A stretch of DNA of 64,000 nucleotides from assembly GCA_964017065.1 (NCBI GenBank), contig OZ024789.1:7010191-7074190 (forward strand), read 5' to 3'. Of the stretch, positions 9,542 to 64,000 are shown in pieces. Numbering within the stretch: position 1 is the stretch's first letter; each line of letters starts with the position of its first letter. The translations under genes and the position numbers were made by a program. The notes below the pieces were generated by a model that saw only the letters and a program-made list of their open reading frames with translations, was not told the origin of the DNA and did no database searches. The stretch is from Haliclona indistincta (lineage: Eukaryota > Porifera > Demospongiae > Haplosclerida > Chalinidae).

Positions 9542-10519
9542 CTACGAGTCAAGTTCACGTTCCTCACTGGGTGGCTGATTGAGTAGCGTGCGGGAAACTG
9601 CGAGAAGAGAGGATCTTGGCGTCCGAATGTATCTCAAATAAGCTGACGACCTCCATCGTCCCAGCGTTTGGATCAAAGAGTCAGGGAGTCCGACCTGTGC
9701 TGCCGCCGTGGCTGCACCAATCCTGAAGCTATGCCCCGAATAACGAGCTATGTCCACCCCCAAGCTCTCCAGAGCTGACCTCACTGCCGCGATGAGCCGC
9801 GCTCTTGTCAAAGGTGAACAGTCCACATGTATGAATAGGGGGCCAGCCACGGGTGGCCTGATTGCCAGAAAAGACAGCATTGCAGCCACTGGGCAAATTG
9901 GTGATCCCGTCCTTCCAACATACAACACGTGACCTATACCATACGGGTCCGTCTTGCTGCCCCGAAGAGTAATTGCCAAGAATGAAGGATTTTCTCGACT
10001 GTCGACCCGAACGTCAGCTGGCGTCAACACTGAGTGACTGTTACTCTCCCCTGCAATAAACTCCCCAGCTCGCAGGAAGGCAAAGAAGCCCAATGTGCAC
10101 GCCGCCCAGAGCATGACTGCTTCATAATGCGATGAGTGTGAGGACCATGCCCGCAGAAGGTGTTGCAGTATCTCCACTGTGATTGGCAGCCTGCTGGTGC
10201 GTCCAGATCTCGGTTGAGTGCGAGCCACGCCACGAACAACATAATGCAATCTGTCAAATGTTTCTAAGTGTGGGTTACCATTACCGTATGCAATCTGAGA
10301 GAAGCGAATAGCACTGAGATAAAGTCGAATGGAAGAGAGAGATAACTGAGCTTGATGCAGGTGAGCTACAAAACGACAAACCACCGTCTCAGTCAGTGGG
10401 AACGCGGAGAGTCCTGTCTCGGTGCAGAATGACTTATACCTTCTAACGCCAGACCGATAGGCTGATGCTGTTGATGGTGCAACCCCCGACTCAAGCAGTG
10501 TTTGAACCGTTGCATCCAT
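9542..10519 (-). CDS. Tyrosine recombinase (integrase) of Ngaro-like element 1
   Basis: This recombinase would integrate the circular cDNA of the element without target duplication. The frame is open for about 325 residues. The SAM-like N-terminal domain (YRSGVRRYKSFC) is followed by the catalytic domain: first Arg in FLRAGEF at about residue 150, the HSFR motif carrying His and the second Arg, GRW, and the Tyr nucleophile in SAYLRYIRT near the C-terminus. All catalytic positions are present. I chose the first ATG at 10519; the frame is open further to at least 10534. It overlaps the end of the RT frame by about 130 bases in another frame, a normal arrangement for this class. It looks intact. 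Confidence 0.88.
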   Translation of the reverse strand: MDATVQTLLESGVAPSTASAYRSGVRRYKSFCTETGLSAFPLTETVVCRFVAHLHQAQLSLSSIRLYLSAIRFSQIAYGNGNPHLETFDRLHYVVRGVARTQPRSGRTSRLPITVEILQHLLRAWSSHSSHYEAVMLWAACTLGFFAFLRAGEFIAGESNSHSVLTPADVRVDSRENPSFLAITLRGSKTDPYGIGHVLYVGRTGSPICPVAAMLSFLAIRPPVAGPLFIHVDCSPLTRARLIAAVRSALESLGVDIARYSGHSFRIGAATAAAQVGLPDSLIQTLGRWRSSAYLRYIRTPRSSLLAVSRTLLNQPPSEERELDS

Positions 10520-12209
10520 TGTGGACAGTTCCAATCCGGCGTTTGGACCAGGATTACGTCTAGCAGCTCTAGAGAGACCTCTGTTTCCAATACCTGTGGG
10601 AAGAGAGAATGAAAAGATGACAAATTGCCTCTTGAGAGCGCATCTGCGGCTGAATTATCAGTGCCCGGGATATGCTCAGCAGTGATATGAAAGTTATAAT
10701 AGACTGATATAAAGTACAGACATCTAAGCAGGTGACAAGGAATGGATTATCTGCATTGAGCTTCTGCACTACCTTGACCACCGCCATATTGTCTACGTGG
10801 AACAACACCCGACAGCCTCGCCATTGAGAGCCCCACAATGCAGAAGCAAGAACCAGTGGTACCAGCTCCTTTACTGATATGTCAATCGTGGACCAACTAC
10901 CTGGCCACTTCGTATTGAACCAACTGCCCTCAAGGAAGAATGCTCCACAACCAAAAGAGCCCGAAGCATCTGAAAACACTTCCACCAAGTCAGCTGCATC
11001 CAATGGTATCAGTGCTATCCCATTCCAGTCACGGAGGAACAGATCCCACCACCTCAAGTCTGCCTGCATCGACATGTTCAGTCTCACGTAATGGAATGGT
11101 TTGGGGGCTGATGGTAATAGACTAAACAAAGGCCGCAAAAATAATCTTCCCGGACGAATTACCGTAGCAGCGTGTGAGAGATGACCCAAAAGCGACTCCA
11201 TCTCCCTCCGAGTGAAGGAGGTCCTGGCAATTGACCTTTGAACCAGGCGCCGGACACGTAACAGCTTTTCCTCAGGCAAGCTCAAAGTGAAAGATTCAGT
11301 ATCAATGAGAATACCCAAGAACGTCACCCTGGTTGAGGGGCCTTCAGTTTTGTGGCTAGACACTGGAACTCCAAGCTCTGCAAATGCCGCCTCGGCTCTA
11401 GACCGTGCCATAGATGCTTCGGAGGAGCCTGGTGACCCCACAAAGAGGAAATCATCCAAGTAGTGCAGCAAAAACCGGATCCCTCTCTTAAAAAGAATCC
11501 ATGCCAACGCGTCAGCAACAGCAGAAAACACCTTTGGAGCTGAACGAATACCAAACGGCAGAGCCTTATCCACGAAAGTCATGCCCTGCCATTCAATAGC
11601 TAGAAGGTGCTGGTCATCCGGGTGAACAGGGATCATGCGGTAGGCATCACGGAGGTCCAATTTCACTAGTTGTGTACCCCGTCCGAGTTGCTTAAGAAGT
11701 CTGACTGCATCCTCAAGTGACGCATACTTTATCGAACAGAGCTCCTCGGAGATCCCATCGTTCACACTCGCAGAAGACGGAGAGGAAAGGTCCACAATCA
11801 TGCGCCACTCAGACCCTGAGTGGCCTTTAGGAACGAGACCGATGGGACTCGTATGAACTCGTTCGGCAACCTCTCTAGACAGGGGACCAACGATCCGGCC
11901 AGCTTCCAATTCAGATGCTAACTTAGATGTGACTGTGCTAGTATCGGCCAGTGAGGATGGATGATTGCGTCCTCATGTCCGCAAACTCCGCCCCATCCTG
12001 CAGTAGCCGATGCGGAAGCCCTCACGCAAGCCCCGAATTATATACTCACAGAACAACTGATCCGGATGTAAGCGTAATTCCCACGCCAGGACGGTTAGGC
12101 AGATTGGCGTGCAGTGGCGTAGCCAAGATGGCGGGTGACCTATAGGCTTCATTGAGTCCAAGGCAAGAAGGTCTGATGTGTAACGGTAACAACCCTCCCT
12201 TATCCCCAT
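10393..12209 (-). pseudogene. Reverse transcriptase / RNase H of Ngaro-like element 1, two lesions
   Basis: DIRS/Ngaro-type RT copies element RNA to DNA. The N-terminal part (WELRLHPDQLF, GFRIGY) lies at about 12090-11990. The palm follows (LVKLDLRDAYRMIPVH, then LPFGIRSAP, then HYLDDFLFVG with the YLDD catalytic box). RNase H residues are FSDASG, the Glu in VKELVPL, FHVDN and DNSAADALSRG. Two lesions are visible: an in-frame TGA at 11975-11973 between the N-terminal segment and the palm, and a one-base shift at about 10727, after which the RNase H end and the linker (PQVLETEVSLELL) continue in the next frame to 10393. The TGA could instead be removed by splicing or recoding; I treat it as a mutation. 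The upstream limit is uncertain. Confidence 0.8.
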
Positions 12210-20468: not shown

Positions 20469-20668
20469 NNNNNNNNNNNNNNNNNNNNNNNNNNNNNNNN
20501 NNNNNNNNNNNNNNNNNNNNNNNNNNNNNNNNNNNNNNNNNNNNNNNNNNNNNNNNNNNNNNNNNNNNNNNNNNNNNNNNNNNNNNNNNNNNNNNNNNNN
20601 NNNNNNNNNNNNNNNNNNNNNNNNNNNNNNNNNNNNNNNNNNNNNNNNNNNNNNNNNNNNNNNNNNNN
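20469..20668. other. Assembly gap (200 N)
   Basis: Exactly 200 unknown bases inside the satellite, probably a gap of unknown true size in the tandem array. Confidence 0.99.
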
Positions 20669-22027: not shown

Positions 22028-22640
22028 TCACAAATACATAGATACGAGTATATCAAGGTGAGCGGAGCTAACTGCTTGGGCTGTGTGGTAGGAGTCCGCA
22101 GGATGCTGAGGCCAATGCCTGAGCGGGAGACTGAATGTATCGTTGGAGGCATTGGAGCGCCACCGGACCAGTGTCTGTATGTAGGAGTCTCCAAAGCCCA
22201 TAGACTCTATCGTCGCTGCAGCACCCATACGGAAGCTATGCCTTGAGTAGGCGGCTGTGTCAATACCGTGTGACTCTACCACCTGTGCAATCCGACGCAT
22301 CAATCGTCGCCGTGACAAGGGTGACCCATCTCTATAGAGGAAGAGAGGACCAGGTTGCTGACCAGAGTGCCAGGTACCCCAGAAGGGCGACGACTGGGCA
22401 AATGCTTTGACCAGTCTGCCCTAAGTAAACTGTTACCCCCTCGCCAAAGGTGTCAGTCTCAGAATGACGTAGATGTACGGAAACCATCGCAGGCTGCTCG
22501 TGGGAGTCCACGGCGATGTCACGAGTAAGCAAATCCGGGTTGTATGCCCGCCAGGATGGACACGTGAACTCACCAGCCCGTAGGAAGCCAAAGAAGCCAA
22601 TACAACAAGCCGCTCACACGTACAAGGTTGGTACGCACTG
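22028..22640 (-). pseudogene. Tyrosine recombinase remnant of element 2
   Basis: Minus-strand remnant of the C-terminal half of a Ngaro-type recombinase. FLRAGEFTCPS carries the first Arg at about 22580, and the next segment (AVDSHEQPAMVSVHLRHS) lies at 22530-22340. After a frame change near 22330 comes SRRRLMRRIAQ and then YSRHSFRMGAAAT, with the HxxR box at 22240-22210, and VRWRS. The catalytic Tyr region is degraded. It resembles element 1 in domain order but differs in sequence, so the two belong to different families. Inactive. Confidence 0.78.
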
Positions 22641-32207: not shown

Positions 32208-35200
32208 TTATTGATTCATACAAAAAACATTTAAACAATACAAGCGATTGGTTTCAAAATTATGAACATATTGTAGCTTGTCTAAAGTAACTTCCTCCCG
32301 CTCAACAATGACAGAACCACTGTTCACAAAGTCGCATGACTCGTCACACTCATGTACAAAAGATACTTCTGCTTTAACTGAGGTAGATGGCATCAGCTTG
32401 AAGTTAGTGGTGATCGAATATAAAGGACAGTCTAGATTGTTTACTACACCTGCCATACCCTCCATCTGCTGTACCAAACACACCTTGTCGTTCTTGTACT
32501 TTAAACCAAGTACAAACATTCCATACATCACCTAGTCAAGAGAAAATCTAGAATAGTAATAAAACCTTCTGGATGATGTAACAAACCTCAGTGCCCCCTC
32601 CTAGTTTGATGAAAGAACCATTGTGAGCCATTTGACCAACCTGCGTCATCACTCCACCATACACAAAAACAAGAGCACTCAATGGTACATGTTCTGGTAG
32701 AAACAGCATGGAAGCGGAACACAGACCAGCTATATCAGTTGATACACCTTTTGCCACAACACTCACTTCTCCAAGCACCATTTGTCGAGTATGCTACATA
32801 AGAATATTGCGTAATATTAATTATACTATTTCTCTGTGCATCAATATTACCTTCAATAGACGTAGTGAACCTGGTTGAAATATATCTTTGTCGTGGTGAA
32901 GGGTTCTAAGAGGGATACTGTTTACAAAGTGTTGAACAGTACTTTGTGAGTATAGCTCCTGTAATCCTGCTCCACTACTATAATTATACAAGCACTATTA
33001 TATTGATTATGCTCGAGAACATAAGGTTACCTTTGTTTACCATCCAGAGACCCACCATCGCCAAGAAAACGAAGGTGTTCTAGCACATCGAAACAATTCG
33101 CAATGTCCTTGCTTGGTGATTGGCGATTACCAAACACATTGAATGTACGTAAAATAGAATTGAATGCCTCACATCTACAGTCATAAGATGTGCATCATAA
33201 TAGTTATACATCATGCATCATTTATCTTACCTTTCAGTGTTAAAAGCAGAAGTAGGCCCAAACTCAATCATGTTATCTACTAAATGTAAGAGAAGGTGAA
33301 TCTTCGGCTTTTTAAGCATGTCAGGAAAAGCCACTCTGACTGCTTCAACAAATTCAACACAAACACTATGACAGCTATCTTTGTTCTTGGTAGAAAAGGG
33401 AGTGATGTAGGCAATCTGAAATACCTTTACACAAGTATTATAAACCATTCTTAGCACAAAGTGTATTAACCTTAGAAAGGCAAAACCAAACTTGGAACTG
33501 CTCATCATTGAGATAGTCTTGAACAAGAAAGATTGCCACCTGAAAAAAATCATACATAATAATTATCATTATTATTATTACTACCTGCATCCATGCTTTA
33601 AAATCTCGGCCAACAAATGAGCGATAATTTCTGGTGAGATTCCCCAAGACCTTTTCATCAATTCCTGACAAGGGGAACGCTTGCAAATGAGCGTGAAGTT
33701 TTTTCTTATCTTCAGCAGAAAGAGAAGCCATAAGCATATGGAGAAGATATTTACACGGACCCAAAAGGATCGTGTGAAGAGTCTCAACAGGAGTCGACCT
33801 AATACATGTGCATGATTTGTGCCAACATACTATAATTAACTAACCTGTACAAGTCACATGGAAGTGACAGTAAATAATTGGTGCTTTCTCTTAACCCACA
33901 TTCTTTTCTTGCCTCAATCTTCTTGTTTTCCGAGGTCTTCGCTTTGATATTCTCAATTTGTTTCAGTGAAATTTCTTTTGTTCTAAGCTGAGCGACAGAG
34001 TCCGGTGCAATGTCCTTGTCAGTCTATTGATGTACATAATCAGGAGAACATGAACTGTTATAAGGTACAACTTCGGTGTCATCAGAATAACACTTAATTA
34101 CGCATTTCTGCTGTTACAAAAATATTTTGCATCACATTATGAGTAGCACGTTCTTCTCAGCGCTTTCAATGGCTTATATACGAGGTCTTTCCTTGCTTGA
34201 GCACACACCAACAATATGCGTGTTCATAGCATTCTCTGTCACTAAGCAAAAAGTATCAGTGATCAGCTTGTAGTGTGTGTTTACAAAATGCTACATCTCA
34301 CAAGCACAAAACTTCAAAATAAGGACTGCTTTTGATGGCACTCATTAACCGTTTACAGTTGCATGTTCCTTTCGTTCATAATGCTCCTGATATAACACAT
34401 AATTTTATTATACTTCTATTGAGTTATCCTACCCTACTTTAACAAAGCTCACCAAACAAATCCTACAAAACTTCTTTGCAGTCGAGCCCATGTGATTGAG
34501 TATTTCAGATGCTCGTGGGTTATCGCCAATAAAGATCAAAACAGGAGCAAACACTCTGACCTGCTTTTGAAGGTGAGCATCAAAAGCCTTAATACCACGC
34601 TGCTCAAGAAGGAGAAGGTCACCAACAATTGGGGCACTTATTTGCATGCAATCGGCCCGATTAGAACAGGCAATGAAGTGGATATTAGACAGCTTAGAGT
34701 TTTCATGACGAGGAAGACCAGCCAAAAGAAGGCACCAATAATCGAATTTATTCCACTTTTTACTTCTGTTACCGCTTGTGTCATCAGAGTAGATAATCAA
34801 CGGGCAAACAATAGTTGGCAAATCGCTTCTATCTTCACAAGTTGCTGTAAACCTTGAATAACTCTGCATTAAGAATAGTTGGTTTGCAATACATGCATAC
34901 AAAAAAGTGTATAGTAAGCACCTCATGGCTCATTGTATTCATGGCTCCATTTGGTGAGCATTCCACAATTATAGCTGGTGGTATACTTTCTTGTACAAAA
35001 TTCATCGAAGTGAAGATTTTGTCAGCAAGCACATGTGCAGCAGGGTCACAGTACATGTAGTTAACATGGTTGTTAAACCTATACTTGTTGCGTAAAGCGT
35101 AATACATTAATTTATCACTTACTGAACAAACTGAGGCAACGTAGGAAGGCAGTGCACTAAAGCAAAAGGTTCACTATGTCCGACCTGCATGCACACATAT

Positions 35201-36446
35201 TACAACATGTCAACAAACATCAATATAATAATGACGTAACTATTGTATTCATATGAAACTAACCATTTCAACAAACTTCAATATCTTGCCAATAGTAGTA
35301 CCGTACAAGGTATGTGTGAAGGTGACGAAGTCGTTGACATAAAATAATGTCCCCGAAATGTCCACCATGGATGCTTGAAAGCGGGGGTCATTTTTCCACC
35401 TTTCACCATGATATATCTCTCTATAAAAATTATTATATTGAAGGTAATATTAAAAATCAACGTACTGATAAAATTCAGAGCCGTAAACAGGCAATCTGTG
35501 AAGCATCTTCGCAACACTTGGCATGCCAAGACACATTCTCAGTATGTGTGATGGACGTCGCATATGGAAAGGTATTCCTCCATCGGTATAATGCTGTTAT
35601 CATTGTACATGAAAAAACACGTATATTTGTATTGAAGTACCTTTTGTGGGACTTCAGATTCAGGCAGTGCAAATTTTTTTACATCACTAAATGAAGGAAC
35701 AATGACAGACTGTGTCTGATGCAATAGATACCAGATGAATGTCAGAGTAGACTCGCCCTACAATGCATAAAAGAATGTCATAACTACAAGTCAATCCAAT
35801 GTGTAATAACAGACCACACGATGTGGACTATGCATTAGCATATAGAGGAGAGCAAACAGCTTTGAAGGGAATGGAGTGAAGTCGGAATACTTCTGAACAG
35901 TTTGAAAAACTGCCACAAAGTCTAAAGCAGCAACCATACGCATCAAATTAATTTAATTGCCAAAGTATAATTATCTTACCTATGTGTTCGTCTTCATCGC
36001 CATCATGATTACTTTCTTCGGGTGTGAATAAGTCGAATGCCATGTCTTCGTCACTACTAAATTCATCTCCATCTTTACCCACATTTGTAATGCTCTCTGC
36101 ATGTGTATGTTCCTGTAGCACATTTAAGTATCCTGTCTCAAAATCATTTCTCGAGCATGATGAGCCACTGGCTTCCTGTATTTATAACATTCACAAGAGT
36201 ACAGCAGCCATAGTATGTATGAACCTGTAGCAACAATGAAGTAGATGTTGTCCTTGGAGCACACTTTAACAGCTTCTCGAAGCGTTTGTGGCTCGCTGTC
36301 GTATAGTGACGATCAAGTTTGGACTTGAATTCAAATGAGACATTGCAAATATTGCAGTAGTATTCTAAAGTCAAATAATAGGATGGGAATGTATACATGT
36401 AAGTAAAGATCATCTCACTTGCTAACTGGGCACTATTAGCAGCCAT
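32208..36446 (-). CDS. Plavaka-like (CMC superfamily) transposase, multi-exon
   Basis: Start at 36446 (MAANSAQLA), then a first intron and a C2H2 finger (YYCNICNVSFEFKSKLDRHY). An acidic region follows (DGDEFSSDEDMAFDLFTPEE). The transposase core carries IIYSDDTSGNRSKKWNKFD (first Asp) and LPRHENSKLSNIHF at 34860-34690, then IFIGDNPRASEILNHMGST with the second Asp and a CRIC zinc motif at about 34540-34450. It ends with KPKIHLLLHLVDN and FNTER joined to CEAFNSILRTFN (catalytic Glu) at about 33300-33150. The last exons (32781-32208) form the usual C-terminal domain (GSFIKLGGGTEV, MYGMFVLGLKY) and stop at 32208. Introns are about 45-120 bp. Exon joins were not all verified, but I saw no interrupted catalytic exon. 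The gene starts 140 bp from a divergent gene. Confidence 0.75.
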
Positions 36447-36586
36447 TCTGATCACATAAACGCACCGAGTTATAATATTAGCAGCAATCCACACGTGCAC
36501 ACGTGCATGCAAACATTTGCTCACGTGAGTCCGCTTTTTCTTGCTGGTGCATTGCTGTGAGCGTGAACCTTCTGTGCAGGCTAAAT
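36447..36586. promoter_or_regulatory. Divergent promoter region of the Plavaka-like element
   Basis: Only 140 bp separate the start codons of the minus-strand transposase (36446) and the plus-strand coiled-coil gene (36587), so both must be driven from this stretch. It contains overlapping cacacgtgcacacgtgcatg, with two CACGTG E-box-like sites at about 36491-36510, and another cacgtgag at 36523. The regulatory role is inferred from position. Confidence 0.5.
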
Positions 36587-37851
36587 ATGCTATCTTACAG
36601 GCCTCGAGGATCTGTGCAACGAAGAGGCAAGTTTTATAATACATTAATAATGACAATGTTTATACAGATAATGATAGTTGTTACAACTTTCAAAACAGGG
36701 CAGCATGCTAGTGCTAGTAGAGCGATCCCATATTCTCGACCCAGTACTATGAGCACAGACACTAGTTCGTCTTCACATGAGGAACAGTCGGGGAGTGAGC
36801 TGCCTGAATTTCCAGATGACCAAAGCTTGAGTGTGATGGTACAACACTGTTGCACATCATTGCAGACTCACAGTCGACAGCTACAGAAGATACAAGACCA
36901 CCTTACTAGTCTAACAAAACAAGTATCAAGTATTCTTGACAAGCTAAGTGAACAAGAAAGACAGAATTTCAATCTGAAAGATGCACATCTAGAGGTAAAT
37001 GATTGAAATGATAATGTATACTAAGCTGTAGATAAACTATCATCATAATCCCGATCATAATTATTATTACAGAAACCTCTCAGAACTGCAGTAGCGAAAG
37101 CCTACGTCAGCAGTTTAACAAGATCACTGGATGAGGAAACACTATCTGTCAGTTTCAAATTTAACTGATTCTGTTACAGTATCAGTTCCTTACATATTAG
37201 GAAATTTTGCAGGGAGTGCTCGGAGACAGCTGTCTGGAGAAGTACAAGTGTGATATTGCAGCCAGTAGATGCAAGGAACTCATGACGACCTTTAGAGGGG
37301 AAGAAAGGAGGCGTGTAAGTGTGCTGTTTATTACCAGAGTTCATGCACATACGTAAACACAGTTTACTTTAGTTTATATTGTATTTGTTATCTAGATATA
37401 TGGACGCGCTCCCTGTGCAAATGCTTCAAAAAAGAGGACGATAGATTTGGCAGAGGATTTGATAAAATATTTTCAGGCAACAATTTCTGCCAAGGAGATT
37501 TACTCAAGGCATCTCGCAGTACTAGTATGTAAAATTTAATGTCTGGTTCTGTCTTTAATATTAATTATTATTTCGTTACAGCGTCTCTATGTACAGATGA
37601 ATCCTGATGCTGAGTATGCTAAAAGTTTTTTCACTGGATTTCGAGCATGGCTGACGGCTACATATGGAGGAGAGCCCAGTGAAGACAACTATGTGGAAAT
37701 CATGTCACATGATGAACATCATGACTATTTCCTATTTCCAACGGTACCATCACCAGATGAGCTGAGAGCTCTGGTGATGGTAGATGAGCCGAGAGCTTCC
37801 TCATCATCAAGTAATCTAGCTCTCCCACTTGATGATGAGGAAGAAGACTAA
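36587..37851 (+). CDS. Coiled-coil accessory protein with acidic tail, transposon-borne
   Basis: Exons: 36587-36626 (MLSYRPRGSVQRR), 36699-36994 (Ser-rich, then SVMVQHCCTSLQTHSRQL ... KQVSSILDKLSEQERQ, a heptad-like coiled coil), 37073-about 37150 (KPLRTAVAKAYVSSL), about 37213-37314 (VLGDSCLEKYKCDIAA), about 37400-37530 (IYGRAPCANASKKRT) and 37582-37851, ending in DDEEED and a stop. The first intron has a GC donor (AGAG|GCAAGT), a known minor class. The third donor is uncertain. The family is not recognised. It is transcribed divergently from the transposase, as accessory genes of CMC elements often are, and may bind DNA or bridge transposase. Confidence 0.55.
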
Positions 37852-49472: not shown

Positions 49473-50595
49473 AACCATTATTTTATTATTATTAAATTTT
49501 TTATGTATGTGGTTTCTTGTGTACTATTGAAAAAAATATATTATAATAATAAAATAATGGTAAAAAAAATTAAAATAAATGAATTAAATTAAAAACAATG
49601 TTCCCATGACGCATGGGAACAACGGTTTTTTATTTAATTTTTTTTACCATTATTATATTATTATTTTATTTTTTATGTATTTGGTAGCTTGTGTACTATT
49701 GAAAAAAATATATAATAATAATAAGATAATGGTAAAAAAAATTAAAATAAATGAATTAAATTAAAAACAATGTTCCCATGACGCATGGGAACAATGGTAT
49801 TTTATTTAATTTTTTTTACCATTATTTTATTATTATTATATTTTTTATGTATGTGGTAGCTTGTGTACTATTGAAAAAAATATATAATAATAATAAAATA
49901 ATTGTAAAAAAATTAAAATAAAAAATTTAAATTAAAAACAATGTTCCATTCCATTATTTTATTATTATTATATTTTTTATGTATTTGGTAGCTTGTGTAC
50001 AATTGAAAAAAATATATAATAATAATAAGATAACGGGAAAAAAAATTAAAATAAAAAAATTAAATTAAGTTCCCATGACACATGGGAACAATGGTATTTA
50101 ATTTAATTTTTTTAACCATTATTTTATTATTAATATATTTTTTATGTATGTGGTTGCTTGTGTACTATTGATAATAATAATAAAATAATGGTAAATAAAT
50201 TAAAATAAAAAAATTAAAATAAAAAAATTAAATTAAGTTCCCATGACACATGGGAACAATGGTATTTTATTTAATTTTTTTACCATTATTTTATTATTAT
50301 TATATTTTTTATGTATGTGGTAGCTTGTGTACTATTGAAAAATATATATAATAATAATAAAATAATGGTAAAAAAAATTAAAATAAAAAAAAATGAAATT
50401 AAAAACAATGTTCACATGACGCATGGGAACAATGGTATTTTATTTTATTTTTTTTACCATTATTTTATTATTATTATATTTTTTATGTATGTGGTTGCTT
50501 GTGTTCTATTGAAAAAAATATATAATAATAATAAAATAATGGTAAAAAAAATTAAATTAAAAAAAATAAAATTAAAAACAATGTTCCCATGACGC
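49473..50595. repeat. AT-rich palindromic satellite, block 6
   Basis: About six or seven units, some shortened (about 49945 and 50170). It ends within a hairpin core at ccatgacgc, where the RAG1-like element is inserted. Confidence 0.92.
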
Positions 50596-50622
50596 CACAG
50601 CCGTTTTTAGTGGACATTAAGT
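50596..50622 (+). repeat. Left terminal inverted repeat of the RAG1-like element
   Basis: The heptamer CACAGCC (50596-50602) is followed by an 11-base stretch GTTTTTAGTGG and then ACATTAAGT (50614-50622). The same heptamer type and ACATTAAG block occur at the right end with a different spacing. Confidence 0.8.
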
Positions 50623-51059
50623 GTTAAATTAAAACACAAAAATTATTTCCGGTATAACGTTACAAGAAACCACAAGCTATGGCTGCGTTGCCAGGGAGGG
50701 TTGCCAAGTGTAGTCATCCGTAACCTGGTTACTTATCAACTCTATTCATGATTGAATCAATAGATCAACACCATGCGGTCAACAGTAGCTTAAGTGCGCA
50801 TTCATATACACACTAACTGCAGCTGTACAGTGGTTGCGCATGTACCAGCTGTAAAAATTCAAACGACACGCAAGAACAGTTGCTGTACACAACACTCTCT
50901 AGCACCGCCGCTACCTTGCTTGGCTGCTTGTATACTTGTTCTTTCAAACAGGTAAGAGTGTTTCTAACTATTAAGTCTAAAATATAGCAACTACGGTTTT
51001 TTTGAGGCAAGTAATAGAGCTATCAAATCATGACATAAAATGAAGACAGGTTGTTGTGA
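50623..51059 (+). promoter_or_regulatory. 5-prime untranslated region / promoter of the RAG1-like gene
   Basis: No gene is seen between the left end and the start codon. An in-frame TGA stands directly before the ATG at 51060. The promoter role is inferred from position only. Confidence 0.4.
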
Positions 51060-54000
51060 ATGGCTTCTCCGCATGATCTTGAGAGACACTGCAGAATATG
51101 TGGAGGTTTTCTGCACAAGAGAAGGAAAAGAGGGACTGAATATGAGTGCAGTTTACATTCACACTCTCTCACAAAGACCTTTGGGGTTGATGTAACAGCA
51201 GACATACCCTCAGTTCATCCCCTCAAATTCTGTGATCGCTGCTACGCATGTGTGCGCCGACAGGATAGTGCAGATGCACAAGGTCTCCCATACAATCACT
51301 CCACCACAGTATTCATCTGGGAGAAGCACACAGACAAAGAGTGTAAAGTAAGAAGTACATTACAGCAAACCATAAATTAAAAAAAATCACTATAAACAAT
51401 AGGTCTGTAATCATCTGAGTCAGCTAGGAAGTTCAAAGGGCGGAGGAAAAAACAAGAAAGATGGCAAAAATCGGGGCAGACCTAGCAAAAACAACATCTA
51501 TGACGTCACACGTCATGTCCACACTATCATGCCACCAGCCACTACCTCGATTCCTCTTGATACATCTAGTGAGCTTGCCGAGTCACTTGAGTGTTCTCTC
51601 TGCAACAATCCACTGTCTCAGCCAGTAGAACTGTCGTGTGGCTCACTGATATGTTCCGAGTGCTGTTGCTCGTGGATGAGACTGAGCAAGAGACTGGACT
51701 GCCCATGCTGTTACAACCACCAACTCAGCAACGACACAGTTAGATCACCAAATCCTGTGATCCTGTCTCTACTCGACAAGCTACATGATCAGCATGACCC
51801 ACACATCACGGTAGAGACCATTCTCACCACTCCCAGCACTACACCAACAAGCCAGATCGAGAAGCGTGTCGCGACATCACTTGTAAAGCGTCTTCTCAAA
51901 GAAAGTGACAGCAGTGTCATAAAAGTGCCTACGAAAGGAAAGGTACAATCACAGTACTTACAACTAAAATTTTTTACCATGCATACAACAATCTACAGCC
52001 AATCACTCTTGTGGCAGTACCACAAAGCAGTGTAAACACCACCACTGCTACAAAGAAGACCATCCACCGTCGTCTACAACAGGTACAAGAGGTGCGAAAT
52101 ACACTGGGCATAGACATACAGGAAGAGGTCGGCACCCTTACAAAGGAGGAGAAACAAAAGCTGTTGAAAGAGGCATTGCCTTTAGAAATCCCAGCAGACC
52201 ATGCCCTTGCCATGAAGAGCACGCTAGGTATTTCATGGACTAAGCTGCGCACACTGAGGAGGTACATGTACAGCTATGACACAATAAGCATGTACTACAA
52301 TGCTATGTAGGTGGCTAAAGACTTGCAACATTTCACTGGCTAGTGAACAGAGGCAGAGAGCTCTTGCCACTGTTGAGGTTGGAGATAACCTGGCACACGA
52401 AATGGTGCCGTTTGCCTTCTCCAAAGATGGCGGAGGAGTGCAAATCAGAGAGGCGCCATTTGTATTTGTCCCAAACCTCATTCGCAAAATTAGTGATCGA
52501 TTATCAGAACAAAGGTAATTAAAAGTTAACTAACAGCTAGCAAAAATATCAACACTACAGGTCATCAACTGGGTTCACATGGCACAATGGTGCAATTCCA
52601 GCAGATGAAATTTGGTTGAAGCTAGGAGGAGACAAGGGACATGGAAGCTTTAAGCTGACATTGCAAACTATCAACGTCACTTCTCCTAACTCCACTAAAT
52701 GCACCACAATACTTGCAGTCTTCAGAGCTGGAGACTCCAAGTATAATTTGCACACAGCCCTTGATCAGTATAAGGAGCAGATCAGAGAAATAGAGGGAAT
52801 GCAGTGGAGGTATAGTAACACTGTATACATGCTAAAACAATCTCATCACATGTACATGCACAGTTCTTGGAAACTTCGTCTATTTTTTTCGGGCGACTAT
52901 GAGTTTCTGTCTACTATGTATGGTTTATCAGGAGCTTCTGGTATGTTCAAGTTAGAGACATATTCTAATTAATGACAACCACAATTATTAGGTAGGCACT
53001 GCTGTTTGTGGTGCAAGATCTGTAGCTCCGATCTCAAGCTACCATTGGCAGTAAGAGGTCGGAGTGAAAGCAGAACATTGCACAATCTCAAAGAAGACCA
53101 TGAGAAATTCATTAAAGAAGGTTCTGGTGACCTTAAAAAGGCTAAGTTGTACTACAACTGTATTTCAGAACCTTTTTTCGACATTTGCATTGACCAAGTA
53201 AGCAAAAAGCACTACTTACGCATCAAAATCTACATTGTCAAAATTTAGGTAGCGATGCCTGGGCTACACCTCTCACTTGGTATCTTCAATCGTCTCTTCA
53301 CTCTGCTAGAAAATGCATGCCAAGAACTAGACCTAGAGTATGCATCACAAGGCGGCACTGTGACTACAGGTGGAACTTCATTCCAACAGTATGCTAAAAT
53401 GCTCGAAGAACTCTCACACCTAAAAGAGCAAAGTGTGATAAAGCAGCAAGAAAAGATGCTATGTTCCCAACTAATGTCCTACCTGCTAGTTACAGTACCA
53501 TCACCAGAGCAATCACCAACTATTGCCAACGTAAGGCAAGAGTTAGGAAAGATTGAAAAACAAAATTCAGAATTGGTAAAGTTAATTCAGAATTGTAGTA
53601 CATTTACAATAACAATTACATGTAGGAATTGAAAAGAGCTGGCATTGAAAGAGATCTTAAAAAGAAATTTGACAGAACAGATGGTCCATTTTATCGATCA
53701 CTAGACCAGTCTCTAGATGCACTACATGTACAACGACAGGCTTACCATGGAGGTACCTTTGTGGGAAATCATGTGCACAAGCTTGTCCAGGTATGCTAGC
53801 CTTTAGTACTTTACTAATAATACACACCACTCACAACTATTAGGAGAAAAATGCTACAATACTATGCACCAGACTAGTAGAAGTAGCTGAGAATGAGTGC
53901 TCTACAGTTCTATCATCAGCAAGGAAAGTGTCCACAAAGTTTAAAACAGCCTTAGTACTATTTGGAAACTGCCACAACCTCTACAATGGAGGTGTTCTAT

Positions 54001-54395
54001 CAGAGACAGAGATAGATACACTTGGTAAGCACATAACAGTAACTATAATTTACTAATTCAAATGCTTATCACCGATCACAGACACTAACATCAAAACATT
54101 CTTTGAATTCTACCGGGAAAGCTTCCCCAATGCATCCATCTTGCCCAAAATGCACTTTTTAGAGGACCATATGATACCTTGGGTGAGGAAATATGGAATA
54201 GGGTCTGGCTTGATGGGCGAACAAGGGGCCGAGTCTATCCATGCCCACATGAATCGTCACGACCAACAATTCAACGGCATCCCAAACAGCCTTGACAGGC
54301 TCAAGTACATTGTGAGGGAGCACAATCTGGAGTCTTCCCCATCTCTCAACTCTCTAATGCCACCACCTAAAAAATACAAAAAGAAATCAGATTAA
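51060..54395 (+). CDS. RAG1-like DDE transposase, 937 residues, 11 exons, intact
   Basis: Exons 51060-51347, 51403-51942, 51999-52261, 52311-52514, 52561-52809, 52864-52940, 52992-53197, 53249-53575, 53626-53790, 53844-54024 and 54082-54395 all have GT..AG borders and sum to 2814 bases in one frame. Residues 11-100 match the RAG1 N-terminal zinc region (HCRICGGFLHKR, TADIPSVHPLKFCDRCYAC). A RING finger follows at 160-200 (ECSLCNNPLSQPVELSC). The core holds LGGDKGHG (Asp456), FFSGDYEFLST (Asp526), GLSGASGRHCCLWCK with a zinc CxxC, GGTFVGNHVHKL at about 750, and GLMGEQGAESIHAHMN (Glu884, or Glu880), the order of Asp600, Asp708 and Glu962 in RAG1. By family knowledge it cuts and joins element ends in the nucleus. 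A Chapaev/N-RAG-TP-type relative is the main alternative label. Confidence 0.88.
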
Positions 54396-54960
54396 CCACT
54401 GTGTTTATACACTAATCTCGGACTCACGCACACAAATCACATCATCACACATGCTATAGTAACCATCTTCTTCTATACACAGACTGTATTCAGATTATAC
54501 CTATGCACAAGTCGCTTCTAAAATGGTGTATTATAAATACACAACCAATCTGAACTCGAGAAAGCTCTGTATACAGACAATACAAATACACTTCAACAAA
54601 AACATGTCAAATTATTGGCCAAAAAAAATAGTAGACCATTTAGTACATGTTAGCTAACCTGTAAGAGGCATGGCGAATGCGTAGAAGTATGATCCAGCTA
54701 GTCAAGCATGATCTCCTTGAGGTGACACTCTGTCTCTTTTTGAAGGGAGTCTTTACACGCGCGAAAACATAACTCAGCCCTGCTTGGTCCCTTCGAAGTG
54801 AGACTTGAACTGATCTGCAGCTCTAACACTGGTCTAGCACGTTGCTCTGGAGTTTTTGCGGTGTTATGCACGTGAGCGTCACGAGAGCGTAACAACAAAC
54901 TGCGCATTCAAACAGGAAGTCTCGTTGCTAGGTTGTTGCTATGCCACGAAAAATTTTTGG
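54396..54960 (+). other. 3-prime untranslated part of the RAG1-like element
   Basis: About 560 bp between the stop codon and the right terminus. No second gene is seen. A 69-codon minus frame (54698-54907) shows no domain and nothing like the kelch repeats of RAG2. No clear polyadenylation signal beyond AT-rich stretches. Confidence 0.55.
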
Positions 54961-54967
54961 GGGCGTG

Positions 54968-55006
54968 CCTTAATGTCTCAAACGTGATTTGGCAAAAACG
55001 GCCGTG
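54968..55006 (-). repeat. Right terminal inverted repeat of the RAG1-like element
   Basis: Read inward on the minus strand: heptamer CACGGCC (55006-55000), then 23 bases starting GTTTTTGCC, then ACATTAAGG (54976-54968). Compared with the left end the ACATTAAG block is 12 bases further in. Confidence 0.8.
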
Positions 55007-57587
55007 ACGCATGGGAACAATGGTTTTTTATTTAATTTTTTTACCATTATTTTATTATTATTATATTTTTTATGTATGTGGTTGCTTGTGTACTATTGAA
55101 AAAAAAAAATAATAAAATAATTGAAAAAAAATTAAACTAAAAAATTTAAATTAAAAACAATGTTCCCATGACGCATGGGAACAATGGTTTTTTATTTAAT
55201 TTTTCATACCATTATTTTATTATTATTATATTTTTTATGTATTTGGTAGCTTGTGTACTATTGAAAAAAATTTATAATAATAAAATAATGGTAAAAAGAA
55301 TTAAAATAAAAAAATTAAATTAAAAACAATGTTCCCATGACGCATGGGAACAATGGTATTTAATTTAATTTTTTTTGCCATTATTTTATTATTATTATAT
55401 TTTTTATGTATGTGGTTGCTTGTGTACTATTGAAAAAAAGATATAATAATAATAAAAGAATTGTAAAAAAAATTAAAATAAAAAATTTAAATTAAAAAGA
55501 ATGTTCCCATGACGCATGGGAACAATGGTATTTTATTTAATTTTTTATACCATTATTTTATTATTATCATACTTTTTATGTATGTGGTTGCTTGTGTACT
55601 ATTGAATAAAATATATAATAATGATAAAATAATTGTAAAAAAATTAAAATAAAACATATAAATAAAAAACAATGTTCCCATGACGCATGGGAACAATGGT
55701 TTTTTATTTTACCATTATTTTATTATTATTATATTTTTTATGTATTTGGTAGCTTGTGTACTATTGAAAAAAATTTATAATAATAAAATAATGGTAAAAA
55801 GAATTAAAATAAAAAAATTAAATTAAAAACAATGTTCCCATGACGCATGGAAACAATGGTATTTTATTTAATTTTTTTTGCCATTATTTTATTATTATTA
55901 TATTTTTTATGTATGTGGTAGCTTGTGTACTATTCAAAAAAATATATAATAATAATAAAATAATGGTAAAAAAAATGAAAATAAAATAATTAAATTAAAA
56001 ACAATGTTCCCATGACGCATGGGAACAATGGTTTTTTATTTAATTTTTTATACCATTATTTTGTTATTATTATATTTTTTATGTATTTGGTAGCTTGTGT
56101 ACTATTGAAAAAAATATATAATAATGATAAGATAATGGTAAAAAAAATTAAAATAAAAAAATTAAATTAAAAACAATGTTCCCATGACGCATGGGAACAA
56201 TGGTATTTTATTTAGTTTTTTTTACCATTATTTTATTATTATAATTTTTTTATGCATGTGGTTGCTTGAGTACAATTGAAAAAAATATATAATAATAATA
56301 AAATAATTGTAAAAAAATTAAAATATAACATATAAATAAAAAACAATGTTCCCATGACGCATGGGAACAATGGTTTTTTATTTTACCATTATTTTATTAT
56401 TATTATATTTTTTATATATTTGGTTGCTTGTGTACTATTGAATAAAATATATAATAATAATAAGATAATGGTAAAAAAAATTAAAATAAAAAAATTAAAT
56501 TAAAAACAATGTTCCCATGATGCATGGGAACAATGGTTTTTTATTTAATTTTTTTACCATTATTTTAATATTATTATATTTTTTATGTATGTGGTTGCTT
56601 GTGTACTATTGAAAAAAATATGTAATAATAATAAAATAATGGTAAAAAAAATTAAAATAAAAAAAATTAAATTAAAAACAATGTTCCCGTGACGCATGGG
56701 AACAATGGTTTTTTATTTAATTTTTTTAACCATTATTTTATTATTATTATATATTTTTTTGTATGTGGTTGCTTGTGTACTATTGAAAAAAATATATAAT
56801 AATAAAATAATGGTAAAAAAAATTAAAATGAAAAAAATGAAATTAAAAACTATGTTCCCATGACGCATGGGAACAATGGTTTTTTATTTAATTTTTTTTA
56901 CCATTTTTTTATTATTATTATATTTTTTATGTATGTGGTTGCTTGTGTACTATTGAAAAAAAAAATAATAAAATGATTGTAAAAAAAATTAAAATATAAA
57001 ATTTAAATTAAAAACAATGTTCCCATGACGCGTGGGAACAATGGTTTATTTAATTTTTAATACCATTATTTTATTGTTATATTTTTTATGTATTTGGAAG
57101 CTTGTGTACTATTGAAAAAAATTTATAATAATAAAATAATGGTAAAAAAAATTAAAATAAAAAAATTAAATTAAAAACAATGTTCCCATGACGCATGGGA
57201 ACAATGGTATTTTATTTAATTTTTTTAACATTATTTTATTATTATTATATTTTTAATGTATGTGGTTGCTTGTGTACTATTGAAAAAAGGATATAATAAT
57301 AAAACAATTGTAAAAAAATTTAAATTAAAAATTTAAATTAAAAACAATGTTCCCATGACGCATGGGAACAATGGTATTTTATTTAATTTTTTTTACCATT
57401 ATTTTATTATTATTATATATTTTCTGTATGTGGTTGCTTGTGTACTATTGAAAAAAAGATATAATAATAATAAAACAATTGTAAAAAAAATTAATATAAA
57501 AAATTTAAATTAAAAACAAGGTTTCCATGACGTATGGGAACAATGGTATTTTATTTAATTTTTTTTCCATTATTTTATTATCATTTA
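55007..57587. repeat. AT-rich palindromic satellite, block 7
   Basis: About 15 units, with several shortened ones (for example loss of the ttaattttt part at about 55707 and 56382). It ends abruptly at ttattatcattta against a GC-richer minisatellite. No gene. Confidence 0.92.
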
Positions 57588-60500
57588 TTATCGACTTGTA
57601 AGCCCCTTGGTACCCCAAAGGGCTTGCGACTTGTAAGCCCCTTGGTTGCCTAAAGGGCTTGCGGCTTTTACGACTTGAAAGCCCCTTGGTCCCCTAAAGG
57701 GCTTGCGGCTTTTCCGACTTGTAAGCCCCTTGGTCCCCCAAAGGGCTTGCGGCTTGTACGCCCCTTGGTCCCCTAAAGGGCTTGCGGCTTTTGCGACTTG
57801 TGAGCCCATTGGTCCCCCAAAGGGCGTGCGACTTGTAAGCCCTAAAGGCTTGCGACTTTTGCGACTTGTAAGCCCCTTGGTCCTCCAAAGGGCTTGCGAC
57901 TTATTCGACTTGTAAGCCCCTTGGTCCCACAAAAAGTTTGCGACTTGTAAGCCCCTTGGTCCCCTAAAGGGCTAGCGACTTTGCGTCTAGTAAGTCCCTT
58001 TGTTCCCCAAAGGGCTTGCGACCTTTGTGACTTGTATCCCTCAAAGGGCTTGCGACTTTTGCGACTTGTAAGCCCCTTGGTTCCCCAAATGGCTTGCAAC
58101 TTTTGCGATTAGTAAGCCCCTTGGTCCCCCAATGGGCTTGCGACTTGTAAGCCCCTTGGTCCCCTAAAGGGCTCGCGACTGTTGCGACTTGTAAGCCCCT
58201 TGGTGCCCCAAAGGGCTTGCGACTGTTGCGACTTGTAAGCCCCTTGGTCCCCCAAGGGGCTTGCGACTTTTGCGACTTGTAAGCCCCTTGGTCCCCAGAA
58301 AGGCTTGCAACTTGTAAGCCCCTTGGTCCCCTAAAGGGCTTGCGGCTTTTGCGACTTGAAAGCCCCTTGGTACCCCAAAGGGCTTGTGACTTTTGCTACA
58401 TGTAAGCCTCTTGGTCCCCCAAAAGGCTTGCGACATGTAAGCCCCTTGGTCCCCTAAAGGGCTTGCCCCTTGGTCCCCTAAAGGGCTTGCGACTTGTAAG
58501 CCCCTTGGTCCCCTAAAGGTCTTCCGACTTTGCGACTTGTAAGCGCCTTGGTGCCCCAAAGGGCTTGCGACTTTTGCGACTTGTAAGCCCCTTGTTCCCC
58601 TAAAGGGCTTGTGACTTGTAAGCCCCTTTGTCCCCTAAAAGGCTTGCGGCTTTTGCGACTTGTAAGCACCATGGTCCCGCAAATGGCTTGCGTCTTTTGC
58701 GACTTGTAAGCCCCTTGTTCCCCCAAAGGGCTTGCGAATTTTGTGACTTTTAAGCTCCTTGGTCGCCCAAAGAGCTTGCAACTTTTGCGCCTTGTAAGCG
58801 CTTTGATCCACCAAAGGGCTTGCGACTTGTGAGCCCCTTTGTCCCCCAAAGGGCTTCCGACTTTTGCGTCTAGTAAGCCCCTTTGTCCCACAAAGGGCTT
58901 GCGACTTTTGCGACTTGTAAGCCCCTTGGTCTCCTAAAGGGCTTGCGAGTTTAGCGACTAGTTAGCCCCTTCGACCCCCAAAGAGCTTGCGACTTTTGCG
59001 ACTAGTAAGCCCCTTGGTCCCCCAAACGGCGTGCGACTTGTAAGCCCCTTGGTCCCCTAAAGGGCTTGCAAGTTTTGCGACTTGTAAGCTCCTTGGTCCC
59101 CCAAAGGGCTTGCGACTTTTGCGACTTGTAAGCCCCTTGGTCCCCCAAAGGGCTTGCGACTTTTGCGACTTGTAAGCCCCTTGGTCCCCCGAAAAGCTTG
59201 CGACTTGTAAGCACCTTGGTCCCTTAAAGGGCTTGCGACATGTAAGCCCCTTGGTCCCATAAAGGGCTTGCGACTTCTGCGACTTGTAAGCCCCTTGGTC
59301 CCGCAAATGGCTTGCGCATTTTGCGACTTGTAAGCCCCTTGGTTCCCCAAAAAGCTTGCGACTTGTAAGCTCCTTGGTCCCCTAAAGGGCTTTCGACTTT
59401 GCGACTTTTGCGACTTGTAAGTCCCTTGGTTTTCCAAAGGGCTTTCGACTTTGCGACTTTTGCGACTTGTAAGTCCCTTGGTTTTCCAAAGGGTTTGCGA
59501 CTTTTACGACTTGCAAGCCCCTTGCTCCGACAAAAGGCTTTCGACTTTAGCAACTTGTAAGCCTATCGGACCCCCAAAAAGCTTGTGACTTGTAAGCTCC
59601 TTGGTCCCCTAAAGGGCTTGCGACTTTTGCGACTTGTACGCCCCTTGGTCCACCAGTGGGCTTGCGAATTGTGCAATCGCTTTGGTCCTCCAAAGGGCTT
59701 GTGACTTGTGAGCCCCCTGGTTCCCCAAAGATAGTGATACTTGAGCCCCTTGGTCCCCCAAAGGGCTTACGACTTTTGCGACTTGTAAGCCCCTTGTTCC
59801 CCCAAAGGGCTTGCGAATTTAAGACTTTTAAGCTCCTTGGTCGCCCAAAGAGCTTGCAACTTTTGCGACTTGTAAGCGCTTTGATCCACCAAAGGGCTTG
59901 CGACTTGTGAGCCCCTTTGTCCCCCAAAGGGCGTGCGACTGGTAAGCCCCTTGGTCCCCTAAAGGGCGTGCGTCTTGTAAGCCCCTTTGTCCCACAAAGG
60001 GCTTGCGACTTTTGCGACTTGTAAGCCCCTTGGTCTCCTAAAGGGTTTGCGACTTTTGCGACTAATTAGCCCCTTCGACCCCCAAAGAGCTTGCGACTTT
60101 TGCGACTAGTAAGCCCCTTGGTCCCCCAAACGGCGTGCGACTTGTAAGCCCCTTGGTCTCCCAAAGGGCTTGCGACTTTCGGGACTTGTAAGCCCCTTGG
60201 TCCCCTAAAGGGCTGGCAAGTTTTGCGACTTGTAAGCTCCTTGGTCCCCCAAAGGGCTTGCGACTTTTGCGACTTGTAAGCCCCTTGGTCCCCCAAAGGG
60301 CTTGAGACTTGTTAGCCCGTTGGTCCCCCAAAAAGCTTGCGACTTGTAAGCACTTTGGTCCCCTAAAGAGCTTGCGACTTTGCGACTTGTAAGCCCCTTG
60401 GTGCCCCAAAGGGCTTGCGAATTTTGCGACTTGTAAGCCCCTTGGTCCCCCAAAGGGCTTGCGACTTTAGCGACTTGTAAGCCCCTTGGTCCCTTCAAAA

Positions 60501-62650
60501 GCTTGCGACTTGTAAGCACCTTGGTCCTTTAAAGGGCTTGACTTGTAAGCCCCTTGGTCCCCTAAAGGGCTTGCGACATGTAAGCCTCTTGGACCCATAA
60601 AGGGCTTGCGACTTCTGTGACTTGTAAGCCCCTTGGTCCCGCAAATGGCTTGCGCATTTTGCAACTTGTAAGCCCCTTGTTTCCCAAAAAGCTGCGACTA
60701 GTAAGCTCCTTGGTCCCCTAAAGGGCTTTCGACTTTGCGACTTGTAAGTCCCTTGGTCTTCCAAAGGGCTTGCGACTTTTACGACTTGTAAGCCCCTTGC
60801 TCCCACAAAAGGCTTTCGACTTTAGCAACTTGTAAGCTTCTTGGACCCCCAAAAAGCTTGTGACTTGTAAGCTCCTTGGTCCCCTAAAGGGCTTTCGACT
60901 TTGCGGCTTGTAAGCCCTTTGGGACTTTTGCGACTTGTAAGAACCTTGGTTCTCCAAAGAGAGTGCTACTTGTAATCCCCTTGGTGCCCCAAAGGACTTA
61001 CGACTTTTGCGACTTGTAAGCCCCTTGTTCACCCAAAGGGCTTGCGACTTGTAAGCACCTTGGTACCCCAAAGGGCGTGCGACTTGTAAGCCCCTTAGTC
61101 CTTTAAAGGGCTTACGACTTTTGCGACTTGTAAGCCCCTTGTTCCCCCAAAGGGCTTGCGACTTGTGAGCCCCTTGGTCCCCCAAAGGGCGTGCGACTGG
61201 TAAGCCCCTTGGTCCCCTAAAGTGCTTCCGACTTTTGCGTCTTGTAAGCCCCTTTGTCCCACAAAGGGTTTGCGACTTTTGCGACTTGTAAGCCACTTGG
61301 TCCCCCAAAGGGCTTGCGACTTGTAAGCCCCTTGGTCTCCTAAAGGGCTTGCGACTTTTGCGACTAGTTAGCCCCTTCCACCCCCACGACTAGTAAGCCC
61401 CTTGGTCCCCCAAAGGGCGTGCGACTTGTAAGCCCCTTGGTCTCCCAAAGGGCTTGCAAGTTTTGCGACTTGTAAGCCCCTTGGTCTTCCAAAGGGCTTG
61501 CAATTTTTGCGACTTGTAAGACTTAAACGGTTTGCGAATTGTCAGCCTCTTGGTCCCCCAAAGGGCTTACGACTTTTGCGACTTGTAAGCCCCTTGGACC
61601 CCCAAAGGACTTGCGACTTGTAAGCCCCTTGGTCCCCCAAAAAGCTTGCGACTTGTAAGCACCTTGGTCCCCTAAAGGGCTTGCGACTTTGCGACTTGTA
61701 AGCCCCTTGGTGCCCCAAAGGGCTTGCGACTTTTGCGACTTGTAAGCCCCTTGGTCCCCCAAAGGGCTTGCGACTTGTAAGTACCTTGGTCCCTTAAAGG
61801 GCTTGCGACTTTGCGACTTGTAAGCCCCTTGGTCCCCTAAAGGGCTTGCGACATGTAAGCCCCTTGGTCCCATAAAGAATTTACGACTTGTAAGCCCCTT
61901 GGTCCCGCAAATGGCTTGCGCATTTTGCGACTTGTAAGCCCCTTGGTTCCCCAAAAAGCTTGCGACTTGTAAGCTCCTAGGTCCCCCCAAGGGCTTTCGA
62001 CTTTGCGACTTGTAAGCACTTTGGTCCCCCAAAGGCTTTCGACTTTAGCTACTTGTAAGCCTCTTGGACCCCCAAAAAGCTTGTGACTTGTAAGCTCCTT
62101 GGTCCCCTAAAGGGCTTTCGACTTTGCGGCGTTTAAGCCCTTTGGTCCCCGAAAGGGCTTGCGTCTTTTGCGACTTGTAAGACCCTTGGTTCCCCAAAGA
62201 AAGTGCTACTTGTAATCCCCTTGGTCCCCCAAAGGTCTTACGACTTTTGCGACTTGTAAGCCCCTTGTTCCCCCAAAAGGCTTGCGAATTTTGCGACTTG
62301 TAAGCCCCTTGGTTCCCAAAAGAGAGTGCTACTTGTAAGCCCCTTGGTCCCCCAAATGGATTACGACTTTTGCGACTTGTAAGCACCTTGTTCCCCCCAA
62401 AGGGCTTGCGACTTTTGCGACTTGTAAGCACCTTTTTCCACAAAAGGGCTTGCGACTTTGGCGACTTTTGCGACTTGTAAGCCCGTTAGTCCACCAAAAA
62501 GCCTGCGACATGTCAGCTCCTTGGTCCCCAAATGGCTTTAGACTTTGCGATTTGTAAGCCCTTTGGTCCCCCAAAGGGTTTGCGACTTGTGCGACTTGTA
62601 TGCCCCTTGTTCCCCCAAAGGGCTTGCGACTTTTGCGATTTGTGCTTACA
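57588..62650. repeat. Minisatellite with AAGCCCCTTGG hairpin units
   Basis: About 5 kb of variable units of 35-47 bp: cgacttgtaagccccttggt + cccccaaagggcttg, with or without a gacttttg linker. Each unit contains an imperfect hairpin (aagccccttgg / ccaaagggctt). All units share one orientation. Long open frames on the minus strand, up to 196 codons, come from unit lengths that avoid stops and show no gene-like properties. Confidence 0.93.
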
Positions 62651-64000
62651 AATCGCACCCTTGAATGGTGCACCCTTGAATTCCCACCGCGAATTCACTA
62701 AACCCAAAGGGTGCAACATTGGGGTCCCACCGCGAATTCACATAACCCCAAGGGTTCACCATTGGGGTCCCACAGCGAATTCACGAAACCCCAAGGGTGC
62801 ACCATTGGTGTCCCACCGCGAATTCACAAAACTCCAAGGGTGCACCATTGTGGTTCCACCGCGACATCAAAAACCCCAAGGGTGCACCATAGGGGTTCCA
62901 TCGCGAATTCACAAAATCCCAACGGCGCACCATTGGGGTTCCACCCCGAATTCACAAAACCCCAAGAGTGCTCAATTGTGGTCCCACCGCGAATTCGCAA
63001 CCCCCCAAGGTTGCACCTTTGGGGTCCCACCGCTAATTCACAACCCCCAATGGTGCACCATGGTGGTCCCACCGCGATTTCACAAAATTCCACGGGTGCA
63101 CCATTGGGTTCCCACCACGAATTCACAAAACCCCAAGGGTGCCCCATTGGGGTCCAACCGCGAATTCACAAAAGTCCAAGGGTGCACAATTGGGGTACCA
63201 CCGCGAATTCACAAAACCTTAAGGGTGCACCATTGTGGTCCCACCGCGAATTCACTTAACCCCAAGGGTTCACAATTGGGGTCCCACAGCGAATTCACAA
63301 AACTCCAAAGGTGCACCATTTGGGTTCCAGCGCGACATCAAGAAACCCCAAGGGTGCACCATGGAGGTTCTACCGCTAATTCACAAAACACCAAAGGAGC
63401 ACCATTGGGATTCCACCCCGAATTCACAAAACACCAAAGGAGCACCATTGGGGTTTTTGTGAATTCGCGGTGGTACCCCAATGGTGCACCCTTGGGATTT
63501 TGTGAATTCGTGGTAGTACCCCAATGGTGCACACTTATGGTTGTGTGAATTCGCTGTGGGACCCCAATGGTGCACCAGTGAATTCGCAGTGAGACCCCAA
63601 TGGTGCACCCTTGGGGTTTTGTGAATTCGCGGTGGGACCCCAATGGTGCACCCGAGGGGTTTTGTGAATTCGTGGTGGAGCCCCAATGGTGCACCCTTGG
63701 GTACCCTTGGGGTTCTGTGAATTCGCGGTGGGACCCCAATGGTGCACCCTTGGTGTTTTGTGAATTCGCGGTGGTACCCCAATGGTGCACCCTTGGGGTT
63801 TTGTCAACTCGGGGTGGAACCCCAATTGTGCACCATTTGGTTACCCTTGGTCTGTGAATTCGCGGTGGGACCCCAATGGTGCACCCTTTGGGTTTTGTGA
63901 ATTCGCGGTGGGACCCCAATGGTGCACCCTTGGGATTTTGTGAATTCGCGGTGGTACCCCAGAGGTGCACCCCTGGGGTTTTGTGAATTTGCGCTGGGAC
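62651..64000. repeat. 45-bp minisatellite with an orientation switch
   Basis: Units of ccaccgcgaattcacaaaac + cccaagggtgcaccattggggtc run to about 63456. From there to the window end the units are the reverse complement (ggtgggaccccaatggtgca + cccttggggttttgtgaattc). The two halves form a large inverted repeat with arms of at least 540 bp. The array continues beyond the window. Long frames on either strand are by-products. Confidence 0.93.

Follow-up and report, generated by a model that had tools for sequence, protein, structure and literature searches.

Chapaev transposons, which Kapitonov and Jurka reportedly described in 2007 as a superfamily with members that join a Chapa domain to a RING finger, are distant cousins of RAG1, the recombinase that rearranges antibody genes in jawed vertebrates, and here we describe an element of this kind in a 64,000-nucleotide stretch of the genome of the sponge Haliclona indistincta (contig OZ024789.1, positions 7,010,191 to 7,074,190), hereafter called the window. 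The published accounts list as hallmarks of Chapaev a target site duplication (TSD) of 3-4 bp, CAC/GTG termini, and a DDE triad accompanied by C(2)C, LH and H(4)H motifs (PMC4079192). Its transposases correspond to the Pfam family DUF1280 and fall into one clade with RAG1 among the RNase H-like nucleases (PMC3985635), and the Chapa plus RING architecture has already been described (Kapitonov and Koonin 2015, PMC4411706). The RAG-like (RAGL) transposons carry a RAG2-like gene (RAG2L) and make TSDs of 5 bp (PMC7204232). Transib has TSDs of 5 bp as well and is without the N-terminal zinc/RING part (PMC7204232, PMC4411706), Chapaev3 makes a 3-bp TWA duplication (PMC4079192), and N-RAG-TP of Aplysia has a RAG1-type N-terminus within a transposon (PMC8355894). 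Where among these does the sponge locus belong? With a probability of about 95%, we take it to be a complete and apparently autonomous DNA transposon of the Chapaev superfamily (CMC/CMCT) with a single transposase gene of eleven exons.

Boundaries and gene of the element

The interval 50596-55006 is exactly one DNA transposon, laid out together with its flanks as follows (coordinates are those of the window).

49474..50595, no strand: left flank, arrays of a 172-bp AT-rich satellite, the insertion target
50592..50595, no strand: left TSD, ACGC, same as 55007-55010
50596..50608, plus strand: 5' terminal inverted repeat (TIR), CACAGCCGTTTTT, 12/13 to the opposite end
51060..51347, plus strand: coding exon 1, start of the Chapa / RAG1_imp_bd zinc region
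51403..51942, plus strand: coding exon 2, end of the Chapa region and RING-like finger (residues 160-199)
51999..52261, plus strand: coding exon 3, linker and start of the DUF1280 core
52311..52514, plus strand: coding exon 4, core
52561..52809, plus strand: coding exon 5, first catalytic Asp, D456 (LGGDKGHG)
52864..52940, plus strand: coding exon 6, second catalytic Asp, D526 (GDYEFL)
52992..53197, plus strand: coding exon 7, C(2)C motif, C545/C548
53249..53575, plus strand: coding exon 8, LH motif L615-H616; a coiled-coil-like stretch begins
53626..53790, plus strand: coding exon 9
53844..54024, plus strand: coding exon 10
54082..54395, plus strand: coding exon 11, H(4)H motif (H858, H863), catalytic Glu E880 (GEQGAESIH), stop codon
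54994..55006, minus strand: 3' TIR, CACGGCCGTTTTT, inverted match to the 5' end
55007..55010, no strand: right TSD, ACGC
55007..57589, no strand: right flank, satellite array

The outermost 13 bp of the two ends match each other in inverted orientation with one mismatch, and none of 200,000 random pairs of 13-mers taken from the element reaches at least 12/13. The termini read CACAGCC.../...GGCCGTG, that is 5'-CAC...GTG-3', and the form shared by both ends is CAC[A/G]GCCGTTTTT. For the TSD, 4 bp is the only length that matches among the lengths 2-8 tested. When the flanks are joined they rebuild a 172-bp satellite unit, and the six places of the window that match it best do so at 95.95-97.1% identity; of 192 matching pieces, 171 span the rejoined junction. 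The clean ends described in an earlier note on this DNA are thus borne out. No other copy of the ends occurs in the window at up to 2 mismatches, and the search there for other copies of the element gave a single 14-residue tblastn match (E 0.044), read as chance.

The eleven exons splice into 937 codons, as that note had proposed, and a stop, with the frame open over all ten junctions and ten GT-AG introns of only 46-57 bp. Upstream lies a possible non-coding first exon, judged by eye, with a donor near 50952 and an acceptor near 51050. Is the gene structure shared with relatives? In an alignment of the window protein with 11 relatives (A1, 12 rows), three rows from the sponge Ephydatia muelleri (P0010, P0016, P0028) show no length change at the junctions where they have sequence. 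Their gaps start or stop at junction 3 (P0010), at junction 7 (P0016, P0028) and around junctions 8-9 (all three); near junctions 1, 2 and 5, additional residues are present in some of the remaining rows. The gap of P0010 starts right at junction 3, and those of P0016 and P0028 start right at junction 7, which suggests that these intron positions are common to the element and its E. muelleri relatives.

A frame of 937 codons that is intact, in a gene seen once in the window, might also be expected of a Chapaev gene that the host has domesticated and that is no longer mobile. The TIRs, the TSD and the restored empty site in the satellite, on the other hand, are those of a transposon insertion, and domestication is therefore very improbable.

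Transposase domains and the relation to RAG1

The predicted protein matches DUF1280 (PF06918) at residues 342-509 (E 7e-14; 52.4 bits against a cut-off of 25) and RAG1_imp_bd (PF12560) at residues 37-118 (E 7.9e-11). The latter region, in our reading of PMC4411706, would be the Chapa domain. In a sequence search of solved structures, residues 36-223 resemble mouse RAG1 153-351 (E 5e-8), followed by other RING ligases. The Pfam match to RING itself is weak (E 3.7), and the finger is suggested by RING matches in the PDB and by seven aligned RING cysteines, six of them invariant across the 12 rows of A1. All four core motifs listed by the earlier note (LGGDKGHG, GDYEFL, GLSGASG with CxxC, GEQGAESIH) are present, and the Pfam and PDB matches agree with its statement that a RAG1-type zinc region, a RING-like finger and a DDE core lie in one gene. 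Across 78 relatives, each of D456, D526, E880 and the C(2)C, LH and H(4)H residues is shared by 61-69, falls in a gap in 7-16 and is replaced in 0-3. For the Chapa and RING cysteines the counts are 29-38 shared and 37-46 gapped, since the annotations of many relatives lack the N-terminus.

The element thus has what defines Chapaev: a DUF1280 core, CAC...GTG termini, a 4-bp TSD and the DDE and zinc motifs; it also has the Chapa zinc domain of the Chapa plus RING subgroup. With that subgroup it shares the Chapa domain, a RING-like finger, the DUF1280-type DDE core, the ends and a TSD in the 3-4-bp range, and it differs in its eleven exons, its very short introns and an incomplete RING region. 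Chapaev3 belongs to the same superfamily and has the same C(2)C, LH and H(4)H motifs, whereas its TWA duplication is unlike ACGC. N-RAG-TP is alike by description, and we infer that it would itself be a Chapaev.

Is it then a RAG1-like transposon, as had been claimed? The element resembles RAG1 and RAG1L/ProtoRAG in the order of zinc region, RING-like finger and DDE core, in the C(2)C and H(4)H zinc ligands, in its CAC ends, and in a core fold predicted from models of two relatives, which show the RAG1/Transib fold with RAG1 as the best structural match. To that extent the claim stands. In the strict sense it is not supported, as the core belongs to a different Pfam family, the TSD is 4 bp, and a RAG2 partner is missing. 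The spacing between C(2)C and H(4)H is also longer: from C548 to H858 there are 310 residues, with a coiled-coil-like stretch that forms long helices in models of relatives, compared with about 207 residues between the two motifs in RAG1. Transib differs from the element in its 5-bp TSD and in having no N-terminal zinc/RING part.

These likenesses bear on another explanation, that the element is a RAGL/ProtoRAG-type transposon of the RAG1L plus RAG2L lineage which has lost RAG2. The RAG1-like N-terminus, and the predicted cores of relatives that match RAG1 best, would fit. Against it, the core is DUF1280 and the RAG1 family PF12940 is not listed for the window protein at E<=10, although few matches above about 0.1 pass the HMMER filters. 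The TSD measures 4 bp rather than the 5 bp of RAGL (PMC7204232), and the Cx2Cx3GHx4C motif of RAG1L C-termini (PMC7204232) is absent from the window protein and from the other 11 rows of A1. No linked RAG2-like (kelch) gene is found inside the element, where the longest stop-free frames are 69 residues in the non-coding parts (464 and 611 bp) and 99 residues on the minus strand. We regard this explanation as scarcely credible. Without RAG2L and without a 5-bp TSD, the element falls in a known related group and is not a RAG transposon; it appears to share an ancestor with RAG1 and Transib while standing off the RAG1-RAG2 branch. By Pfam profile the core falls within DUF1280/Chapaev. A profile of the linker scores 5.8 bits against a mouse RAG1 fragment (about residues 382-490), a value equalled by 7 of 2000 shuffles; a nonamer-binding-domain likeness within the PDB profile match was not upheld on its own and is not claimed.

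Two features weigh against a fully working transposon. The RING His ligand is absent, with Ser in its place, and the post-RING zinc-finger Cys pair that the other 11 rows of A1 keep is missing from the window protein; ubiquitin-ligase (E3) activity of the RING-like finger is consequently doubtful. Together with the one TIR mismatch and the single copy seen, they would suit an immobile Chapaev copy whose frame is still intact by chance, a variant that leaves the family assignment unchanged. The 937 codons without a stop, the conserved core residues and an empty site with 96-97% identity to the satellite units it matches best speak against this, and the RING His is missing in three E. muelleri rows too. 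We consider immobility possible, if rather unlikely. The element looks intact in both frame and ends, in agreement with the earlier note, and its recent activity is plausible, with a single copy seen in the window.

Relatives, significance and proposed mechanism

A protein search with the core only gave 76 relatives, of which 33 are from E. muelleri (15 by name, 18 read so from 'Em' gene names); the other named hosts are Hydra, sea urchins, a sea star, a feather star, an acorn worm, a lancelet, two gastropods and the sponge Sycon. The core is 41-43% identical to its best relatives. A tree of cores, built without RAG1 or Transib rows, used 77 of 79 rows after the short cores P0002 and P0003 were dropped. 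It puts the element in a set of 35 rows with the 33 E. muelleri rows and P0029, at a Shimodaira-Hasegawa-like approximate likelihood ratio (SH-aLRT) of 97, and its position inside that set is weakly supported (83 and 81); this grouping by itself would make a sponge the most likely host. The Sycon protein P0073 falls outside the set, which indicates that the tree does not simply track hosts; horizontal transfer of the element may have occurred. The placement of the element outside RAG1 comes from Pfam, the TSD and the literature. One of the two dropped cores, P0003 (eukprot Em0602g1a), is a membrane or extracellular-looking sequence fused to a piece of a Chapaev core, possibly a mis-annotation.

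Does the whole architecture recur? Six E. muelleri rows (P0010, P0013, P0016, P0019, P0028, P0065) have patterns resembling Chapa, RING and core in a motif scan, and P0012 and P0064 of Ptychodera as well as P0040 have all three parts by precomputed Pfam, so judged by these matches it is a recurrent one. Among 44 relatives scanned, DUF1280 is found in 43, RAG1_imp_bd in 15 and any single RING family in at most 7, and PF12940 is not among their families at E<=0.01. In the full-length and alignment searches, scoring was confined to the 7993 and 7992 candidates with the most words in common; the resulting lists held 2 and 4 proteins respectively, and one of the four is a RING/PDZ ligase. We infer that these searches were crowded out by RING-like words, and their short lists are not evidence of rarity. 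No relative was confirmed among 85 pattern matches in viral contigs or 37 in prokaryote contigs.

The RAG1-order architecture is not new (PMC4411706), and the element adds a further case to a group already known to be distantly related to RAG1. No sponge Chapaev with this architecture was found by title in the literature (Repbase and subscription journals being outside the scope), and the two papers found to name both Chapaev and Porifera concern other transposon families by title. What the locus offers is a complete, apparently intact transposon with the RAG1 order of parts in a single protein outside the RAG lineage. It is consistent with the view in the literature that the ancestor from which Chapaev, Transib and RAG1 descend already combined a zinc region, a RING and a DDE core. 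With a frame and ends that both look intact, it lends itself to studying the role of a RAG1-type N-terminus in a transposase.

The element would move by cut-and-paste. A transposase dimer would bind both CAC-ended inverted repeats, and the RNase H site D456/D526/E880 would cut the DNA, probably by the nick-hairpin route as in RAG; the cut ends would then be joined to the two target strands at positions staggered by 4 bp. Probable roles of the N-terminal zinc region and the RING-like finger are dimerization, nuclear import or DNA contacts, and there may also be a RAG1-like self-regulation as a ubiquitin ligase.

Satellite target and other features of the window

Why was this site chosen? The satellite unit is predicted to fold into a long hairpin (-41.8 kcal/mol with DNA parameters, where shuffles average -18.7 kcal/mol; z -7.3; 0 of 200 shuffles as good), and the TSD consists of the 3-nt hairpin loop and one stem base. 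Among the tips recognisable by close consensus match, only the one bearing the insertion is split. One explanation is that the element picked the exact tip of a hairpin-forming palindrome. RAG transposition is said to favour hairpin tips (Lee et al. 2002). RAGs are described as recognising hairpins and cruciforms (PMC12682277), but another study saw no insertion into a cruciform-forming plasmid target in its assay (PMC1820826). There is moreover one insertion only, and the tip is also where GC is concentrated in the unit: 8 of its 169 4-mers are GC-rich, and 3 of these lie there. Chance or a simple preference for GC thus accounts for the site equally well. We consider hairpin-tip choice unlikely. 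If true, structure-directed targeting would be an ancestral trait common to the Chapaev and RAG lineages.

Arrays of the 172-bp satellite, with the palindromic centre TTCCCATGACGCATGGGAA, lie at 4.4-5.3k, 6.0-8.9k, 14.6-20.5k, 40.6-42.0k and 49.5-57.6k; three units at 8254-8594 have the centre in the opposite orientation. A 200-bp run of N at 20469-20668, at an array end, is an assembly gap or a masked stretch.

Elsewhere in the window, 57600-64000 consists of long imperfect repeats with several frames open on either strand (GTKGLTSRKSRKPFGGPRGLQVA-type readings), which do not clearly look like genes. At 33441-36659 (minus strand) there are separate open reading frames (ORFs), one of which (34432-34929) weakly matches Transposase_21 (E 0.011), so that this is perhaps another transposase of the CMC group. 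At 9545-11972 (minus strand), a tyrosine recombinase ORF (PF02899, E 2.6e-8) overlaps a reverse transcriptase ORF (PF00078, E 8.4e-14), which we read as a probable DIRS-like retroelement, and a second recombinase fragment lies at 22031-22420 (minus strand).
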